Below are positions 4,319 to 13,732 of a DNA stretch of 50,551 nt, piece after piece (the first letter of the stretch is position 1; every line of letters begins with the position of its first letter). Made by a program: the position numbers and the translations under genes. This DNA comes from an uncultured Gilliamella sp. (GTDB lineage: Bacteria > Pseudomonadota > Gammaproteobacteria > Enterobacterales > Orbaceae): NCBI GenBank assembly GCA_946480175.1, contig CAMLIK010000010.1, positions 1-50,551 on the forward strand, in the 5' to 3' direction. The notes below the pieces were generated by a model. It saw only the letters and a program-made list of their open reading frames with translations, made no database searches and was not told the origin of the DNA.

Positions 4319-4672
4319 CACAACCTCCATTTGACGGTTTTATCGACAAAAAATCATTATATATTCAAACAGAATAAAAAATAAGTAAATCTGATAATAA
4401 CCTAATTTATCAATTAAATTAATTTAACATGAAAATATGTAACTATTTTTTCAAATAGAATTTTTCAATATTACATTAACCAATGATTTAAATATCATTG
4501 TAGTAAAAAATTATCGCAATTTTAGTTATTAAATTACCTGATTGGCTTAGCGTTATCGATACTGAGTATATTAATAACCGTGTAGGATCTTAGATAAAAA
4601 TAAATTGTTTTTTATTAGATTGATATTAAATAATTGTCCATAGTCAAAAAATAAACGCTATGCTAGACTAAA
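4319..4672. other. AT-rich intergenic gap before moaA
   Basis: Divergent gap between ppnN and moaA. It must contain the ppnN promoter, and near 4655-4670 a possible extended -10 (TGCTAGACT) for moaA. I saw no convincing small gene or RNA in it apart from the leader structure annotated separately. Confidence 0.4.
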
Positions 4673-4767
4673 CCAAACTCTGAAGCTACTTTGCCTAAGT
4701 GATAATATTATTCATATGGTAATTTAGCCGCGGTATAGCTCAGAAATGGCTATGCTTCCCGATTTGG
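4673..4767 (+). promoter_or_regulatory. Structured moaA leader, candidate molybdenum-cofactor (Moco) riboswitch
   Basis: CCAAA (4673-4677) can pair with TTTGG (4763-4767), closing an element of about 95 nucleotides directly before moaA. Inside it are ACTT/AAGT around 4689 and a 7-bp stem GTATAGC (4733-4739) with GCTATGC (4749-4755) around a nine-base loop. In E. coli and many gammaproteobacteria the moa leader carries a Moco-responsive RNA of similar size and place. I could not align this to the family model, so the identity rests on position and folding potential. Confidence 0.4.
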
Positions 4768-4787
4768 ATAAGGTGTTTATTATATAT

Positions 4788-5762
4788 ATGCAATTAGTTG
4801 ATAATTATCAACGTCGATTCCAATATTTGCGCTTATCGATTACTGAACTTTGCAATTTTCAGTGCCAATATTGTTTACCTAATGGATATCGACCTAATAA
4901 AGATCATAAATTTTTATCGTTAAATGAAATTGATAATGTCATATCAACATTTACCGAACTTGGTGTGCATAAAATTCGCTTAACTGGTGGCGAACCGACT
5001 TTGCGTCGAGATTTTATGGATATTTTGTCAATTATTTCGGCTTACCCAAGTATTAAACAATTGGCAATTACCACCAATGGCTCACGATTATTAAAAAATG
5101 TCCATTATTGGCAACAAGCTGGGCTTAACGCTATTAATATTAGTATTGATAGTTTTTCTCCTTATATTTTTAAACGAATAACAGGCCAAGACAAACTCCA
5201 AGAGTTAATGCAAGGAGTTGAAAAATCATTAGATGTTGGTATTGAGAAAGTTAAAATTAATACCGTTCTAATGAAAAATATGAATGATCATCTGAGTGAT
5301 TATTTAGCTTGGATTAAACACCGACCAGTAGAATTACGTTTTATTGAGTTGATGGAGACAACCGAAAACCGTCAGTTATTTAATCACTATCATTTAGCTG
5401 GTCAAGCGATGGAGTCTCAACTTATTGAGCAAGGTTGGCAGTTACAAGCAAAAGAGGCATTATCTGGTCCTGCTAAAGTTTATGCTCATAGTGATTATAA
5501 AGGTAAAATTGGTTTAATTATGCCTTATTCGCAGGATTTTTGTAAAAGTTGCAACCGATTACGAGTTTCATCGCTTGGTAAATTATATTATTGTCTTTTT
5601 GGTGATGCAGCTGTTGATTTACGGGATTTGCTAAACAGTCCAGAACAGAAAGCACAACTTAAGGCACGTGTATTAGCTTCGCTATCAATAAAACCGGAAA
5701 AACATTTATTACATGAGCATAATCTAGGCATTACACCTAATTTATCTTATATCGGTGGTTAA
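4788..5762 (+). CDS. moaA: GTP 3',8-cyclase MoaA (molybdopterin biosynthesis, radical SAM)
   Basis: Catalyses the first step of molybdenum cofactor synthesis, turning GTP into 3',8-cyclo-GTP with two Fe-S clusters. The radical-SAM motif is CNFQCQYC near the N-terminus, followed by RLTGGEPTLR. The second cluster is formed by C-terminal cysteines (DFCKSCNRLR and YYCLFG). The family C-terminus ends in the conserved GG needed for activity (NLSYIGG). The frame opens at 4746, but those codons lie inside the structured leader and have no family match; ATG 4788 gives the usual MQLVDNYQRRF start. No moaB, C, D or E lies next to it. The last 21 bases overlap gluQ on the other strand. Confidence 0.94.
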   Translation: MQLVDNYQRRFQYLRLSITELCNFQCQYCLPNGYRPNKDHKFLSLNEIDNVISTFTELGVHKIRLTGGEPTLRRDFMDILSIISAYPSIKQLAITTNGSRLLKNVHYWQQAGLNAINISIDSFSPYIFKRITGQDKLQELMQGVEKSLDVGIEKVKINTVLMKNMNDHLSDYLAWIKHRPVELRFIELMETTENRQLFNHYHLAGQAMESQLIEQGWQLQAKEALSGPAKVYAHSDYKGKIGLIMPYSQDFCKSCNRLRVSSLGKLYYCLFGDAAVDLRDLLNSPEQKAQLKARVLASLSIKPEKHLLHEHNLGITPNLSYIGG

Positions 5763-7930: not shown

Positions 7931-9289
7931 ATGCAATTAGGTCATAAATTGAGTTTGTTAATAAAAAATACGCCAATTATTGAACAACAGTCAGTCCTTG
8001 AATGTGCAATTAATGGGGTGATAGACTACTTTGCTAGTAGTTTGCAGGCATCTCATGAAACAAATGTTCAGAAATTACTAGCATGGATCAATGATGAAGG
8101 TGGCCATAATCGTGCTTGGTTAATTGGTCAAAAGAAACAAGCTACTAGTCGGCAAGCTGCATTATTTAATGGTTTTCAAGCTCATTGTTTAGATTATGAT
8201 GATGTGCATTCAGATGTACGTGGCCATCCATCAGCGGTTATCTTATCGGCTTTATTTGCGAGTATTCGCTTAGATGATTCATTAACCAATTTAGATGGAC
8301 GGCGTTTTTTAACTGCTTATGTAATTGGTATTGAAGTTATGGCCTTGTTGGGACGATGTGTTAATCCTGAACATTATGAAAAAGGCTGGCATGCAACAGT
8401 AACATTAGGGGGAATTGCTGCAACAGCCGCTATTTGTTATTTGTATGACGAACCATTTATTGCTCAAGCATTAACTTTAGCTGCTACACAAGCCTCCGGT
8501 ATGCGCTTATTGATGGGGACACCCATAAAGTTTTTACATGCTGGATTGGCAGCACAACATGCTATACAAGCTGTTGATTGGTTAAGAGCAGGTATTTCGG
8601 CAGATAAAGACTTTCTTGATGATAACTTAGGTTTTTTATCAATATATGGCCAAGGTAATGATGATTTAGATTTAACTGTGTGGGCAAAACCGTGGAAGAT
8701 TGTTAAACCCGGATTATGGTTTAAAACTTATTCATATTGTTCTGCTGCTTCATATATTGCTGATGCCGGTAAGTTACTGTATAAACATCCTAAATTTAAC
8801 GTGGATAATATTAAGCATATTACGCTTTTCTTTGCGCCTGTTAATAGTGATGCTGCGCTAATTTATAAACAGCCATTATCAGCTGAGCAGGGGCGTTTTT
8901 CAGCAGAATATATTTTGGCCTTAATTTTACTTGGTATTACGCCTGATTTTGAACAATTTACGGCAAAACCAATAGCTGACAATATCCAAAATTTAATGCA
9001 AAAAATGCAGCGTAGTTATGATATCCAATTATCCCCACATCCTGATGCATATAATAAACGTTATGTGGTTATTGAAATTGTCTTTGATAATAGCCAAAAA
9101 ATTAGTCAGCGAGTGGATATACCTAAGGGTTCACCGAAAAATCCATATAGTCAACAAGAACTGGCAGCCAAGTTATTTGCTGCATTGCCAAATGAAGTTA
9201 AAGCCCAACAATTATTGACCGATATTCATGCTTTAGCTAATGGTATGGATATTAAACAATTGCTGAGGTCGCATTGGCAAAGGCTTTAA
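7931..9289 (+). CDS. MmgE/PrpD-family protein (YxeQ-like)
   Basis: A 452-residue protein of the MmgE/PrpD fold, the family of 2-methylcitrate dehydratase. Visible features are the N-terminal all-helical half (QAALFNGFQAHCLDYDDVH, GHPSAVILSALFA) and GWHATVTLGGIAATAA. A C-terminal alpha/beta domain contains HITLFFAPVNSDA. PrpD itself is longer (about 480) and sits with prpBC, which are not here. The gene faces a lyase-acetyltransferase-ABC transporter operon across 48 bases. In Bacillus an MmgE/PrpD protein (YxeQ) is part of the yxe locus for S-(2-succino)cysteine use, so the same role is proposed. The exact reaction of YxeQ-type proteins is not known to me. Confidence 0.75.
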   Translation: MQLGHKLSLLIKNTPIIEQQSVLECAINGVIDYFASSLQASHETNVQKLLAWINDEGGHNRAWLIGQKKQATSRQAALFNGFQAHCLDYDDVHSDVRGHPSAVILSALFASIRLDDSLTNLDGRRFLTAYVIGIEVMALLGRCVNPEHYEKGWHATVTLGGIAATAAICYLYDEPFIAQALTLAATQASGMRLLMGTPIKFLHAGLAAQHAIQAVDWLRAGISADKDFLDDNLGFLSIYGQGNDDLDLTVWAKPWKIVKPGLWFKTYSYCSAASYIADAGKLLYKHPKFNVDNIKHITLFFAPVNSDAALIYKQPLSAEQGRFSAEYILALILLGITPDFEQFTAKPIADNIQNLMQKMQRSYDIQLSPHPDAYNKRYVVIEIVFDNSQKISQRVDIPKGSPKNPYSQQELAAKLFAALPNEVKAQQLLTDIHALANGMDIKQLLRSHWQRL

Positions 9290-9337
9290 TTTCTCATATC
9301 AAACTATAAATAACTTAATTAGGTTATAAAGATAAGT

Positions 9338-10093
9338 TTAGATTTCAAAATCAATCTCATCAGAAAGTTGTCGCAAAAAGCGTTGGGTTAACTCATGTTG
9401 TGGATTATCAATCAATGATTTTGCTTGCCCTTCTTCAACGATAACGCCATCTGACATAAAGATGATACGATCGGCGACATATTTGGCAAACTCCATCTCG
9501 TGGGTCACTATCAACATAGTAATGTTGTCTTTGGCCAGTTTTAGCATCACTTGCAAGACTTCATGTACTCGTTCGGGATCTAATGCAGAAGTTGGTTCGT
9601 CAAATAATAGGACTTTAGGTCTAACCGCTAATGCCCTAGCAATAGCAACACGTTGTTGTTGTCCACCTGATAAGGTGATTGGGTATTGATTAGCGTAAGC
9701 TAGCATGCCAACACGCTCTAACAATGATACCCCATACTGTTTGGCTTCATCTTTAGCCATTTTTTGGCTGACAACTAATGGATAAGTAATATTTTCTAAT
9801 GCAGTTTTATTTTTAAATAAATTATAGTGTTGAAAAACCATTGCCGACTGTTTGCGTAGGTTAGTTTCTTGCTTGTGATTATAATGTTCACAATTAAGTA
9901 TGGTTTTATCAATACGGATAGTCCCAGTATTTGGTTTTTCAAGTAAATTAAGGCAACGCAATAAAGTTGATTTTCCAGAGCCTGATGGTCCAATAATTGC
10001 AACTACTTCACCTTGTTTAATACTGAGATTTATTTCTTTTAATACTTCATTATTGCCAAATCGTTTAGATAAATGAGATACATTAATCATCAT
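9338..10093 (-). CDS. Polar amino-acid ABC transporter, ATP-binding subunit (TcyN/YxeO-like)
   Basis: The 251-residue ATPase has Walker A GPSGSGKST (residues 35-43), Q-loop VFQHYNLF, signature LSGGQQQRVAIARAL, Walker B VLLFDEPTSALDP and the switch histidine in VTHEMEFA. These are the hallmarks of the GlnQ/HisP/TcyN family that energises import of polar amino acids and sulfur-containing relatives. It is the last gene of the five-gene operon, seven bases after the permease stop. The ligand is not fixed by the ATPase; the neighbouring lyase and acetyltransferase point to a modified amino acid such as succinated cysteine. Confidence 0.92.
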   Translation of the reverse strand: MMINVSHLSKRFGNNEVLKEINLSIKQGEVVAIIGPSGSGKSTLLRCLNLLEKPNTGTIRIDKTILNCEHYNHKQETNLRKQSAMVFQHYNLFKNKTALENITYPLVVSQKMAKDEAKQYGVSLLERVGMLAYANQYPITLSGGQQQRVAIARALAVRPKVLLFDEPTSALDPERVHEVLQVMLKLAKDNITMLIVTHEMEFAKYVADRIIFMSDGVIVEEGQAKSLIDNPQHELTQRFLRQLSDEIDFEI

Positions 10094-10100
10094 GCTCTCC

Positions 10101-10772
10101 TTAACGATGATATGGTTTAGTCAGCTTACGTTCTAGCTGCTTTTGTAACCATGAATAGGCTACAACTGTTAGCCAGTAAACAATACCGACGGCTAAATAA
10201 GTTTCAAAATAGAGGAAAGAATTTGCGGTTAACATTTTTCCTGCCGCTAATAGTTCTTGTACGCCGACAAAAAATGCGACAGACGAATCTTTAAGTAATG
10301 AAATAAACATATTACCGGTATTTGGTAAAGCATTGACCATCGCTTGCGGTAATATGATGCCTCGATAAACTTGGATAGTACTTAATCCAGAGGTTAATCC
10401 TGCCTCTTTTTGCCCATGGTCCACTGACGCTAAGCCTGCACGAAAGATTTCGGCTAAATAAGCGGAATATTTTAAGCTAAAACAGATGATTGCTGCGGTA
10501 GTTGCTCCCATTTGTTTCATAATTGGAAATATTTGTGGTAAACCATAGTAAATAATAAACAATAGAACAACTGAGGGAATACCACGAAATAAAGAGATAA
10601 ACAGCGCCAAACAAGAATCAATAATAACAATCTTATTGTTTCTAATCAGTGCGATTGTAAGCCCCAATACAATGGCAAACATAATTGAGACAATCGCAAT
10701 AAAAAGTGTAACCGGCAGATACGGTAATATCTGCGGGAATACACTAACAAAATAGTTTATATTGAAATTCAT
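10101..10772 (-). CDS. Polar amino-acid ABC transporter, permease subunit (TcyL/YxeN-like)
   Basis: A 223-residue inner-membrane permease of the HisM/GlnP type. It has several hydrophobic helices, with the first at about residues 17-40 (LPVTLFIAIVSIMFAIVLGL). The cytoplasmic EAA-type loop (QKEAGLTSGLSTIQVYRGIILPQA) contacts the ATPase. A single permease gene suggests a homodimeric channel. Its ATG overlaps the stop of the binding-protein gene by 4 bases, a mark of translational coupling. Confidence 0.92.
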   Translation of the reverse strand: MNFNINYFVSVFPQILPYLPVTLFIAIVSIMFAIVLGLTIALIRNNKIVIIDSCLALFISLFRGIPSVVLLFIIYYGLPQIFPIMKQMGATTAAIICFSLKYSAYLAEIFRAGLASVDHGQKEAGLTSGLSTIQVYRGIILPQAMVNALPNTGNMFISLLKDSSVAFFVGVQELLAAGKMLTANSFLYFETYLAVGIVYWLTVVAYSWLQKQLERKLTKPYHR

Positions 10773-11551
10773 GAGGTAATATCTTCACCAAAATATTTAA
10801 TTGATAGATTTTTCAATGTACCATTAGCACGTAGTTTTTCGATCACTTGATTAAATTTTTCGCGTAAAGCTTTACCTTTTTCATCCTTATTAAAAGGAAA
10901 AGCAACTTGTTCAATCGTGATTGGATTGCCAACTAACTTAAATGGTAGATTTTTTCGTTTGATCTCCGCCAATAAGATGGGTTTGGAATTGACATAGCCA
11001 TCGACTCGTTGAAATTCAGCATCGTGCATTGCACCATCTCGAGTTTCATAAGTTTTGATGGTGATTTCGTTATTTGGAAATGCCTTTTTAAGGTTATTGA
11101 TATGATTTGAACCAAGTACTCCAGCGATAGTTTTGCCATTAAAATCAGTTAACTGATTAATGTTGTTATTGTCTTTATGAGTAACAATTTGACTGCCATA
11201 AAAACTATAGGCTTGAGTAAAATCATATTTTGCTTGTCGAGCTGGAGTTACCGCTACTGCATTTGCTATTGTATCTAAACGGCCAGAGTCAAATTGCCCC
11301 ATTAATCCACCAAACTCAGCAATTACCCATTCAACTTTATAACCTAATTCATTGGCAATTGCTTCGGTCACTTCAACATCAAATCCAATTAACTTACCAT
11401 CTTGTTTATAACCATTAGGGTAACTTTGGCCAGTAGAGCCTACTTTGATAATATTTTGTTCACTCACCTGATTGTTAGATTGATTATCACAACCAATTAA
11501 GCTTAGGCTGGCTAATAAAATCGCAGAAAACAGCGTTATTATTCTTTTCAT
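10769..11551 (-). CDS. Amino-acid ABC transporter substrate-binding lipoprotein (TcyJ/YxeM-like)
   Basis: A 260-residue periplasmic solute-binding protein of the polar amino-acid family (SBP_bac_3). It begins with a lipoprotein signal peptide ending in the lipobox LIGC (Cys at about residue 21), so it should be anchored in a membrane. The family core is visible: DGKLIGFDVEVTEAIANELG, the ligand-pocket segment RQAKYDFTQAYSFYG and GKTIAGVLGSNH. The start overlaps the end of the acetyltransferase gene by one base. Binding specificity cannot be read from sequence; cystine-type or S-substituted cysteine ligands are the best guess from family and neighbours. Confidence 0.9.
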   Translation of the reverse strand: MKRIITLFSAILLASLSLIGCDNQSNNQVSEQNIIKVGSTGQSYPNGYKQDGKLIGFDVEVTEAIANELGYKVEWVIAEFGGLMGQFDSGRLDTIANAVAVTPARQAKYDFTQAYSFYGSQIVTHKDNNNINQLTDFNGKTIAGVLGSNHINNLKKAFPNNEITIKTYETRDGAMHDAEFQRVDGYVNSKPILLAEIKRKNLPFKLVGNPITIEQVAFPFNKDEKGKALREKFNQVIEKLRANGTLKNLSIKYFGEDITS

Positions 11552-12072
11552 TATCGATTACTCCTTTTCTTCCATTCGCAATAGTTTTGGTTATTTAATA
11601 TTTTTTCAAAATAAAGGGTAGTATGATCACTAGTTAAATCTGCTTGCCCAATTTGTTGATAGCCTTTTTGGCGATATATTTTGGCTAGCCATGGATGATT
11701 GGCTGCTGTACCTAAAGTTACTGCTGGCAGTTTAAGTTGATTAATTAAGATTTCTTTTTCAACCCAATCCCATAAAGCATTACCATATCCTTGACCTTTA
11801 TAAGCTGGATCGGTTGCAAACCAGCCTAAATGAGGTAATCCATAAGGACCTGGGTTATTTCCCCATGGCATGCGAATACTGAGTGTGGATATCAATTTAT
11901 GATCTTTTTCAAATAGATAAACTGGATTCGAATCAATATGTTGAATTATCTCTTCTGCTTCGACCGTTGCTGCAGCAAAATGGATGCCTAATTGTGACGT
12001 AGCTTGATAGGCTCGGTGCAATAATTGCTGATATGCTCTAATATCGGAACGGTTGATTAAGCGAAAGCTCAT
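11551..12072 (-). CDS. GNAT-family N-acetyltransferase (YxeL-like)
   Basis: A 173-residue GNAT protein. The acetyl-CoA pyrophosphate-binding motif A is visible as YKGQGYGNALWDWVE (Q/RxxGxG/A). It is preceded by the beta-4 strand LGWFATDPAY and followed by VTLGTAANHPWLAKIYRQKGYQ, the usual C-terminal motif B. It overlaps the lyase gene by 4 bases and the binding-protein gene by 1, so it is made in step with both. In Bacillus the yxe acetyltransferase acts on S-(2-succino)cysteine. Here the neighbouring genes support acetylation of an imported amino-acid adduct, but no substrate residue is diagnostic. Confidence 0.85.
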   Translation of the reverse strand: MSFRLINRSDIRAYQQLLHRAYQATSQLGIHFAAATVEAEEIIQHIDSNPVYLFEKDHKLISTLSIRMPWGNNPGPYGLPHLGWFATDPAYKGQGYGNALWDWVEKEILINQLKLPAVTLGTAANHPWLAKIYRQKGYQQIGQADLTSDHTTLYFEKILNNQNYCEWKKRSNR

Positions 12073-13430
12073 AATAATACTCCGCTATGCTCGGCATATT
12101 TAATGACTTGTTCGACTTTTTCTGCTGCACTGCCGAGATAATTAATTGGATCTAACCAATTATCAAGTTCAGTTTCAGTAAAGTGTTTATTTAAACGAGG
12201 ATCGGCTAATAATACTGATTTAAATGGTCGATTTTGTTCAAATGCCTGCATAGCGTTTTCATAAACCAAATGATGAGCGGTTTGTTTGCCTAAACGTTTG
12301 CCAATTTCAAACATCACTTTTTCTGATAACAGTAGGCCATTTTGTTTTGTCAAATTAGCTAACATTTGATCGGCATTTACCTTTAAACCTTTTAACACCG
12401 CTAAAGCCGTTTGTAATTGTGCCGAAATATAAAGATTGATTTCCGGAAGCGCAATCCATTCTGCTCGCCAGCTCATGGCATCTCGTTCATGTTCAACTTT
12501 CATTGATTCATGAATAAGTGCCACACTTTTTAATAGAGGGGCTGTAAGACTAGCTAATCCTTCTAATGCGGCTGGATTACGTTTATGTGGCATGGTGGTT
12601 GAGCCAATTTTACCGTCGGAAAAAGGCTCTTCGACTTCGTTAATTTCGGTTCGCATAAGGTTGTAAAATTCGTTACCTATTTTGCCAAGGGTGCCACTAA
12701 TCAGGGCAATAACTGAAGCGTATTCTGAAAAACGGTCACGAGCCGCTTGCCAACCTATATTTGGCGTGTTGAGTCCTAGTAACGTTAGTGCTCTCTGCTC
12801 AACTTGTGGGCCGCGTTCTCCCATTGAAGCGTAAGTACAAATAGCCCCACTAATATTGCCGACTAAAACGCGTTGTTTTATCTCAGATAAACGTTGTAAA
12901 TGGCGAACAAATTCATCTAACCAAACGGCTAATTTGAAGCCAAATGTCGTCGGTAGGGCTTGCATCCCATGGGTACGGCCAACCATAGGTAAATATTGAT
13001 ATTGTTTAGCTAACAATTTTAATTGATTGGCAATTAATTTAGTATCACGCTCAATGATAGCGAATGATTGTTGTATCTGCAGGGCAGTTGCTGTATCAAC
13101 AATATCTTGAGTGGTTGCGCCATAATGAATGTATTCACCGGCATCGCCAACCTGTTTTTGCAAAGCGTTGATTGTTGACATTAGTGAATGTTTGGCTTTG
13201 GCTGCCTCTTCGGCAAGTTGTTCAAGGGATAATTTTGATGCATCCGCTTTGGCAATAATGGTATCAGCAATCTCAGCAGGAATAACCCCTAAGTCACCTT
13301 GTGCTTTTGCCAAAGCCACTTCGACTTTTACTTGCTTCTCCAAACGATTTTGCTCAGACCATATCTGACGCATTTCGCTAGTACCAAAATTATTACCTAA
13401 AATTAAAAAATCTAAAATATGCGATGCCAC
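12069..13430 (-). CDS. Aspartase/fumarase-superfamily lyase (adenylosuccinate-lyase-like; candidate S-(2-succino)cysteine lyase)
   Basis: A 453-residue enzyme of the superfamily that eliminates fumarate from succinyl-adducts. The three conserved regions are HYGATTQD (residues 102-109), MVGRTHGMQALP (149-160, catalytic His) and the signature GSTTMPHKRNP (276-286). It resembles the PcaB/adenylosuccinate-lyase-like group rather than housekeeping PurB. The start is GTG at 13430 with a TGAGGAT site upstream; MASHILD is a typical start for this group. It leads a tight operon with an acetyltransferase and an amino-acid ABC importer, with no purine or protocatechuate genes nearby. A role in cleaving a succinylated thiol or amine to fumarate plus amino acid is inferred. 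Confidence 0.85.
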   Translation of the reverse strand: MASHILDFLILGNNFGTSEMRQIWSEQNRLEKQVKVEVALAKAQGDLGVIPAEIADTIIAKADASKLSLEQLAEEAAKAKHSLMSTINALQKQVGDAGEYIHYGATTQDIVDTATALQIQQSFAIIERDTKLIANQLKLLAKQYQYLPMVGRTHGMQALPTTFGFKLAVWLDEFVRHLQRLSEIKQRVLVGNISGAICTYASMGERGPQVEQRALTLLGLNTPNIGWQAARDRFSEYASVIALISGTLGKIGNEFYNLMRTEINEVEEPFSDGKIGSTTMPHKRNPAALEGLASLTAPLLKSVALIHESMKVEHERDAMSWRAEWIALPEINLYISAQLQTALAVLKGLKVNADQMLANLTKQNGLLLSEKVMFEIGKRLGKQTAHHLVYENAMQAFEQNRPFKSVLLADPRLNKHFTETELDNWLDPINYLGSAAEKVEQVIKYAEHSGVLL

Positions 13431-13732
13431 AAAACTATCCTCAATAAAAATGCTATAACTTATTGAACAATTATTATTAATTATTGAGTTAACGTCTAAT
13501 AGCCAATTGATCTAATGATATAACTAAAAAGAATAACAGAAATAATGATTGAATAAATCATATGAATTTATTGTTTAACACATTGGTTATTTGATAAAAA
13601 TTTTGAGGAGAGGGGTTTTTAAAGCTTATAACAGAGAATGTTTCACCTATAGTTAATGTGTAGTGATGGCTAAGATCAATTCGGGGCTTAACACATAGTT
13701 TTGATTGAGGTTATAAGAGAATTTTTTATGGT
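13431..13732. other. Gap upstream of the lyase operon
   Basis: AT-rich interval that should carry the lyase-operon promoter on the minus strand. Apart from repeat copy 2 (13598-13626) and the aspC terminator, I see no gene or clear operator in it. Confidence 0.4.
13598..13626 (+). repeat. Dispersed intergenic repeat, copy 2
   Basis: Reads TTTTGAGGAGAGGGGTTTTT, against TTTTGAGGAACGGGGTTTTT in copy 1. It keeps the preceding A-run and a following AAAGC/TAAGCC-like stretch. It lies about 170 bases upstream of the lyase operon but in antisense orientation to it. Confidence 0.55.

Follow-up and report, generated by a model that had tools for sequence, protein, structure and literature searches.

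A probable 2SL-type locus for S-(2-succino)cysteine salvage in Gilliamella and a candidate epimerase role for its YxeQ homologue

Introduction

What pathway is encoded by six genes in which an MmgE/PrpD family gene faces an operon for a lyase, an acetyltransferase and an amino acid importer? The genes lie at positions 7931-13430 of the stretch analyzed here, hereafter the window: 50,551 nucleotides of contig CAMLIK010000010.1 (GenBank assembly GCA_946480175.1) from an uncultured member of Gilliamella (Orbaceae), a bee-gut symbiont. The genome, of which the window forms contig 10, measures 2.54 Mb in 173 contigs and is 86.25% complete. An earlier note, made from the sequence alone, had taken the locus for yxe-like, with a lyase of the kind that releases fumarate, and this view is borne out by the homologues of the genes and by the scm-linked clade of the lyase. 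We conclude, with a probability of roughly 0.83, that the six genes form a salvage locus for S-(2-succino)cysteine (2SC) of the S-(2-succino) lyase (2SL) type, also termed scm (yxe); this estimate excludes the step of the MmgE/PrpD protein, YxeQ (ScmQ). This kind of locus and the pathway type are already known, and the new part is the function proposed for YxeQ. Judging from its residues and its partners, we give slightly better than even odds that it would be an epimerase acting at C2 of 2SC or N-acetyl-2SC (2SNAC).

The 2SL kind of yxe locus, in which a lyase replaces the monooxygenase YxeK, was published in 2022 (Hillmann 2022, PMC9706529; this paper, PMC7347537, PMC11820211 and PMC12757645 are cited here from excerpts), and the lyase-based Enterococcus variant that the earlier note had mentioned is real. 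In that work, a yxe/scm locus is defined by at least three of five components in a cluster, 2SL occurs in 27 of 102 yxe loci, activity is published for two 2SL enzymes, and 2SL genes allow a B. subtilis yxeK mutant to grow on 2SC. The function of YxeQ is listed there as unknown, and words beginning with stereo-, epimer- or diastereo- are absent from its main text. Another paper terms the scm pathway completely characterized, ScmQ being unnamed in its excerpts (PMC12757645). In the open-licence literature, we found neither an assigned function for YxeQ nor any paper on Gilliamella that deals with succinocysteine.

Results

The window carries the gene set of a 2SL-type yxe/scm locus

The MmgE/PrpD family gene (7931-9289, plus strand; 452 amino acids; Pfam MmgE_PrpD_N and MmgE_PrpD_C) is a yxeQ/scmQ homologue. 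It converges with an operon on the minus strand, the two transcription units being separated by a 48-base gap. The operon begins with the gene of the 2SL homologue (12069-13430; 453 amino acids; GTG start; Pfam Lyase_1 and ADSL_C), followed by that of a GNAT protein homologous to YxeL (11551-12072; Pfam Acetyltransf_1), the proposed 2SC N-acetylase. The remaining three genes encode an ATP-binding cassette (ABC) importer: a substrate-binding lipoprotein (yxeM homologue, 10769-11551; Pfam SBP_bac_3), a permease (yxeN homologue, 10101-10772; Pfam BPD_transp_1) and an ATPase (yxeO homologue, 9338-10093; Pfam ABC_tran). Three of the four junctions overlap, by 4, 1 and 4 bases, and 7 bases separate the ATPase gene from the one before it. 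The overlapping operon facing an MmgE/PrpD gene that the earlier note had described was thus found with all six open reading frames (ORFs), except that its last junction is a gap.

Comparison of the operon and MmgE/PrpD proteins with Yxe proteins and the reported succino-lyase, as the earlier note had proposed, yielded identities of 40 to 61.5%. To the proteins of the Enterococcus italicus operon, identities were 61% for YxeM, 57% for YxeN, 59% for YxeO, 46% for YxeL and 40% for YxeQ; to those of Bacillus spizizenii (L107), they were 52%, 56%, 58%, 44% and 41.5%, respectively. Homologues of YxeL, YxeMNO and YxeQ are adjacent, so that three of the five defining components (YxeK, YxeL, YxeMNO, YxeP and YxeQ) are clustered in the window. 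This six-gene grouping is more than chance, since the same set of homologues recurs together in many genomes and is absent as one block from close relatives.

The closest parallel is the 2SL-type yxe locus of E. italicus DSM 15952 (L122), which has homologues of 2SL, YxeL, YxeM, YxeN, YxeO and YxeQ like the window, but also contains an M20 deacetylase gene and has all genes in one direction, whereas yxeQ is convergent in the window. The B. subtilis yxe/scm operon, represented by that of B. spizizenii, shares YxeL, M, N, O and Q homologues (41-58%) and differs in possessing the monooxygenase YxeK, which yields oxaloacetate, as well as YxeP, both of which are lacking from the window locus. In the place of YxeK stands a class I lyase (Pfam Lyase_1), and no YxeK-like ORF was found there.

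The lyase belongs to the scm-linked 2SL clade

E. italicus DSM 15952 is the strain in which a 2SL was verified (Hillmann 2022, PMC9706529), and over 452 residues its scm-linked lyase shares 61.5% identity with that of the window. We took this E. italicus protein as the verified 2SL by strain, locus and elimination, not by accession: three Lyase_1 matches are present in that genome, namely ArgH (L161), PurB (L168) and the scm-linked protein. In a tree of 41 rows, several outgroup branches of which are long, the window lyase falls among the scm-linked lyases (28 rows, support 94/86; 99/90 for the 20-row part with E. italicus) and apart from PurB, ArgH and PcaB, among which the PurB and PcaB groupings are themselves weakly supported (80/91 and 85/52). 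The earlier note had named clustering with PurB, ArgH or PcaB as the outcome that would refute it, and no such clustering was seen. The SS-loop reads GSTTMPHKRNP at residues 276-286, and all 58 lyase rows retain the pattern GS(S/T)TMP(H/Q)KRNP; here and in the other row counts below, several rows represent one genome twice. By sequence, the protein is a 2SL homologue of the scm-linked clade.

Two Pantoea plasmids (L187, L188) carry scm-type 2SL genes that are publicly annotated as purB, adenylosuccinate lyase, and a chemotaxis receptor gene follows each cluster. Automatic purB labels on such lyases hide the pathway.

The locus is missing as one block from close relatives

In three family genomes (G017, G018 and G023), folK is directly followed by an aspC-like gene, and the window segment 7798-13810 (no strand applies) is missing, as seen by blastn of the flanks at 89-97% nucleotide identity. 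The same folK/aspC flanks border the locus in 15 Gilliamella loci (L034-L047, L053) and in 17 loci of Gilliamella records (L065-L081) that come largely from the same genomes. Within the genus, only G030 ('Orbaceae bacterium ESL0721'; L050, L086) differs: its locus, like those of other Orbaceae genera, stands without these flanks.

Among 44 genomes of the family, the lyase was found in 30 and YxeQ in 29, all of them within the 30, and 14 genomes have neither. The one genome with a lyase alone, G025, holds a decaying copy (L052) in which the lyase is in three pieces and YxeQ was not found; a further decaying copy occurs in G042 (L051), with YxeQ in two pieces and an internal stop. In an evenly sampled set of 345 genomes of the order (lyase E <= 1e-140, YxeQ E <= 1e-60), the lyase was detected in 20 and YxeQ in 17, again all within the 20. 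The remaining three comprise L206, whose locus contains a divergent YxeQ-like gene, and L204 and L205, in which none was found within the 18 kb examined. The family and order samples share genomes and close relatives, and their counts are not independent events.

Of the 30 family genomes bearing the lyase, 22 gave no match to CysI, the assimilatory sulfite reductase; two of these 22 (the window genome and G034) are less than 90% complete. CysI scored over the cut-off in 8/30 lyase-bearing versus 4/14 lyase-free genomes, and with no clear statistical link, absence of CysI was dropped as a driver of lyase presence.

Outside the order, a 29.9-kb Staphylococcus cohnii plasmid (CP027421.1, L196) bears a YxeK-type scm cluster including YxeQ, so the scm pathway can be mobile.

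Upstream of the lyase, a conserved element (13493-13527, minus strand), shared in position by Gilliamella loci, contains the 9-base core TATTAGACG, which recurs upstream of the lyase in 31 of 37 rows; the six rows without it are L041 and L078, which are one genome, and four loci outside the folK/aspC site. The element overlaps a weak 9-of-12 promoter match and may be a regulator-dependent promoter of the operon. Promoter-like and terminator-like matches in general showed no excess (20 versus 27.0 and 4 versus 4.6 in shuffled sequence), and no RNA family was found at the locus at the Rfam gathering score.

The acetyltransferase points to an N-acetylated substrate

The top NCBIfam models for the importer subunits are of the cystine-transporter type, all below cut-off; for the ATPase, they are TcyN and GlnQ, likewise below cut-off. 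The earlier note had the lyase release fumarate directly from an imported thiol. This is unlikely because the GNAT gene is kept and both characterized 2SL enzymes favor the N-acetylated substrate, 2SNAC being preferred over 2SC about 60-fold by the Dickeya and about 320-fold by the Enterococcus enzyme (PMC9706529). Thus, acetylation ahead of cleavage is the likelier order.

The earlier note had further called the monooxygenase and the deacetylase missing, which is right for the locus as regards YxeK and M20 ORFs; for the genome, nine M20 genes were found elsewhere. Three of them match an scm-linked YxeP at E < 1e-50, the best at 47% identity. This best candidate, an M20 amidohydrolase gene on contig 92 (G000:C92:6006-7175, L208), adjoins MetN-like and MetQ-like genes and possibly encodes the pathway deacetylase; on its own terms, it is a candidate N-acetylcysteine or N-acetylmethionine deacetylase. 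Three redundant N-acetylcysteine deacetylases are described for B. subtilis (PMC12757645). We detected no YxeP homologue in the Orbaceae loci examined, and one is present in all three Pasteurellaceae loci (L083, L084, L087).

YxeQ swaps partners and has an epimerase-type active site

The proteins associated with YxeQ were surveyed in named genomes with a profile built mainly on YxeQ, giving 89 pattern hits, of which 81 were confirmed and the best 80 kept, corresponding to 78 loci. A lyase lies nearby in 32 of these loci and YxeK in 38; none has both, and eight have neither, including L064, in which the lyase is cut by the contig end. That the two enzymes never occur together is true of these YxeQ-selected loci only, since a Niallia taxi megaplasmid (L189, 7001-13715) combines lyase and YxeK homologues with YxeP in one scm cluster that lacks YxeQ, and three cases with both enzymes have been published (PMC9706529).

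On a tree of 42 dereplicated YxeQ rows, of which 22 have the lyase as partner, 15 YxeK and 5 neither, the label for the partner requires three changes, at least two of them forced by starred branches. Lyase and YxeK are unrelated, and their C4 products differ (fumarate versus oxaloacetate). Swapping between such partners suggests that YxeQ would act on a substrate shared upstream by both routes, namely 2SC or 2SNAC, both of which are 2-substituted succinates.

Conserved residues of YxeQ are H99 (94/94 rows), Y149 (93/94), H154, K200 and K265. When ten active-site residues were compared with those of iminodisuccinate (IDS) epimerase (PDB 2HP0, 2HP3), an enzyme of the same MmgE/PrpD fold, all ten were identical in the window protein, including the two bases H99 and Y149. 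The window YxeQ accordingly has the two-base His/Tyr pair together with the carboxylate-binding residues of the epimerase type, to which methylsuccinate isomerase also belongs. Mouse cis-aconitate decarboxylase (CAD) departs from YxeQ at three of the ten (R97, Y149 and C270). In the tree, a branch with support 92/93 separates it from IDS epimerase and the YxeQ rows; the window protein shows neither a CAD-type active site nor grouping with CAD. An identity of the MmgE/PrpD gene as CAD was judged unlikely on residues and tree, the fold search giving no separation. The active site and the partner swapping suit a C2-epimerase better than a decarboxylase.

Proteins resembling YxeQ occur in further settings. 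On Roseomonas, Rhizobium and Erwinia plasmids (L234, L235, L237), they keep all ten residues and are encoded beside an amino acid importer and a flavin monooxygenase of the LLM class (luciferase-type; the class is from annotation, with Pfam checked for Roseomonas). Neither an acetyltransferase nor an amidohydrolase is annotated within about 4 kb, and these clusters perhaps serve to salvage a different succinyl compound in a related way. A different cluster in Proteus mirabilis (L191:2014-7818) sets a related lyase beside an MmgE/PrpD protein, and also holds a cystathionine beta-lyase-type enzyme and a DcuC-type carrier; an E. coli plasmid (L192) carries a broken relative. We discounted the Proteus cluster and that of Variovorax (L190) as general support for pairing a lyase with an MmgE/PrpD protein because their MmgE/PrpD proteins lack the tyrosine base.

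A structure named 'IRG1' is B. subtilis YxeQ

The window YxeQ was predicted with a mean pLDDT of 93.3. Searching with this model yielded 7bra (TM-score 0.92) and 7e9d as the best matches, then IDS epimerase (0.87; 27-28% identity), decarboxylases (0.85-0.88; 21-22% identity) and also 2-methylcitrate dehydratases. The operon YxeQ of B. spizizenii matches 7bra and 7e9d, the latter titled as an H102A mutant, end to end at 907 bits each, compared with 204 bits for IDS epimerase and at most 86 for decarboxylases. By this match, PDB 7BRA, named 'IRG1', is B. subtilis YxeQ.

7BRA was called a cis-aconitate decarboxylase from homology and docking, and the same paper states that both epimerase bases are conserved in 7BRA and not in mammalian IRG1 (PMC7347537). 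A different study reports no evidence of enzymatic activity for 7BRA, places it outside the CAD group and considers another reaction likely (PMC12290011). A paper joining YxeQ, 7BRA and an epimerase role was not found in the open-licence literature.

A riboswitch elsewhere in the window

A molybdenum cofactor riboswitch (RF01055) was found at 4666-4791 on the plus strand (47.8 bits; gathering score 36). It overlaps a MoaA-like ORF (4746-5762; named by eye) at its called 5' end, so that the real start codon of this ORF is probably further in.

Discussion

In the pathway that we propose, the ABC importer would take up 2SC, the GNAT protein would acetylate it to 2SNAC before cleavage by the lyase, and an M20 deacetylase encoded away from the locus would release cysteine. 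Using H99 and Y149 as the two bases of a proton transfer, YxeQ would invert C2 of the succinyl group in 2SC or 2SNAC, opening both products of the uncatalysed reaction of fumarate with the thiol to a stereoselective cleaving enzyme, 2SL or YxeK. Uncatalysed addition of a thiol to fumarate creates a new stereocentre, for which both configurations are expected, and lyases of the superfamily are stereospecific. Going by its title, work of Cokesa from 2004 reportedly found that all stereoisomers of iminodisuccinate need an epimerase plus a stereoselective C-N lyase.

The chemistry reported for 2SC bears on this proposal. Chemically made Ac-2SC (maleic anhydride route) gave three peaks of the same mass, for which structural isomers or enantiomers were suggested (PMC11820211). 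Hillmann 2022 used 2SL itself to make succinated compounds after its discovery (PMC9706529), and if these were a single diastereomer, they could have hidden a stereochemical issue in that work. The open-licence matches listed include no relevant paper on succinocysteine diastereomers, a weak negative as bracketed spelling may escape the match.

The gene set, the homologies, the clade of the lyase, conserved catalytic residues and the one-block absence from relatives are read from the DNA; the substrates and reactions of all locus proteins in this organism are what we infer from them. Several points weigh against a 2SL-type salvage locus. YxeP is usual, though not required, in yxe loci, and no M20/YxeP ORF is present in the window locus. 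Orthologues of the contig 92 M20 gene are found both in genomes that have the lyase and in genomes that do not, and some lyase genomes lack them; since this best candidate does not track the lyase across the family, we rejected the deacetylase as a co-inherited partner. Lastly, the window lyase scores above the cut-off of the NCBIfam purB model (TIGR00928; 390 bits, cut-off 326.2). Its scores are below cut-off for PRK08937 (469; 626), XcbD (450; 600) and PcaB PRK09053 (397; 595). The E. italicus scm lyase has an almost identical profile (purB 368, PRK08937 484, XcbD 450 and PcaB 400), which makes 'purB' the expected automatic annotation of 2SL-type lyases.

A housekeeping PurB, ArgH or PcaB, which this purB score and the purB labels of the Pantoea orthologues would suit, is excluded for practical purposes by the tree, by the separate ArgH (TIGR00838, 675 bits) and PurB (PRK09285, 778 bits) that account for the other two Lyase_1 genes of the window genome and by the patchy occurrence of the lyase (30/44 family genomes). 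It is also very improbable that the lyase mainly makes thiol-fumarate adducts, trapping fumarate or protecting thiols. The equilibria of characterized 2SL enzymes do favor the adduct (Kc ~0.005-0.007; PMC9706529), and the XcbD model (NF052536, 3-sulfopropionylcysteine synthase) is of the aspartase/fumarase superfamily with C-S chemistry in its name; its score is nevertheless under the cut-off and the same for the E. italicus enzyme, importer and acetylase genes share the lyase operon, and 2SL genes rescue growth of the yxeK mutant on 2SC (PMC9706529). Somewhat less remote, and still unlikely, is salvage of an N-succinyl compound, be it iminodisuccinate-like or a different N-(2-succino) amino acid, by a C-N lyase and an epimerase as reported for Agrobacterium BY6. 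The agreement of YxeQ with IDS epimerase at all ten residues would fit this, as would the pairing of that epimerase with a stereoselective C-N lyase that the 2004 title is said to report. Against it, the closest counterparts of the lyase, GNAT protein and importer are those of the E. italicus scm operon, in which the lyase uses 2SNAC (PMC9706529), and the top importer models, though below cut-off, are cystine transporters. A 2SL-type salvage locus for 2SC thus remains our preferred reading of the six genes.

Within that reading, the epimerase step is far less secure, and a YxeQ that serves a 2SC locus as a decarboxylase, another lyase-type enzyme or a side-product enzyme is a serious competitor that falls somewhat short of even odds. 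Lyase loci without YxeQ exist on the Pantoea plasmids (L187, L188) and in L204 and L205; their lyases are 70-75% identical to that of the window and the order of lyase, GNAT and importer is the same, but YxeP is present and YxeQ absent. The enzyme from Dickeya is functional in B. subtilis (PMC9706529), and 7BRA bears a decarboxylase name (PMC7347537). IDS epimerase is only 27-28% identical to the window YxeQ, and its reported substrate and partner, by the 2004 title, are a C-N adduct and a C-N lyase; the fold does not separate it from CAD, TM-scores to the two being alike (0.87 and 0.85-0.88). What tips the balance slightly toward a C2-epimerase is that CAD departs at R97, Y149 and C270, which YxeQ and IDS epimerase have in common, that 7BRA is described as having no evidence of that activity and as not grouping with CAD (PMC12290011), and that pairing with two unrelated cleaving enzymes points to a shared upstream substrate.

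Should YxeQ prove to be an epimerase, a step missing from the schemes would be added to both published 2SC pathways, and an scm gene for which the open-licence literature yielded no function would receive one, with 7BRA ('IRG1') re-assigned from an itaconate-making enzyme. In that case, salvage of succinated cysteine would represent a natural counterpart, based on sulfur, to the pair formed by iminodisuccinate epimerase and its stereoselective lyase. Succination is a widespread and stable form of cysteine damage, and the locus would give bee-gut Gilliamella a cassette for undoing it. It may salvage sulfur and carbon in the gut, and such scavenging of organic sulfur could matter in the family genomes that have no CysI match, 22 of the 30 that bear the lyase.

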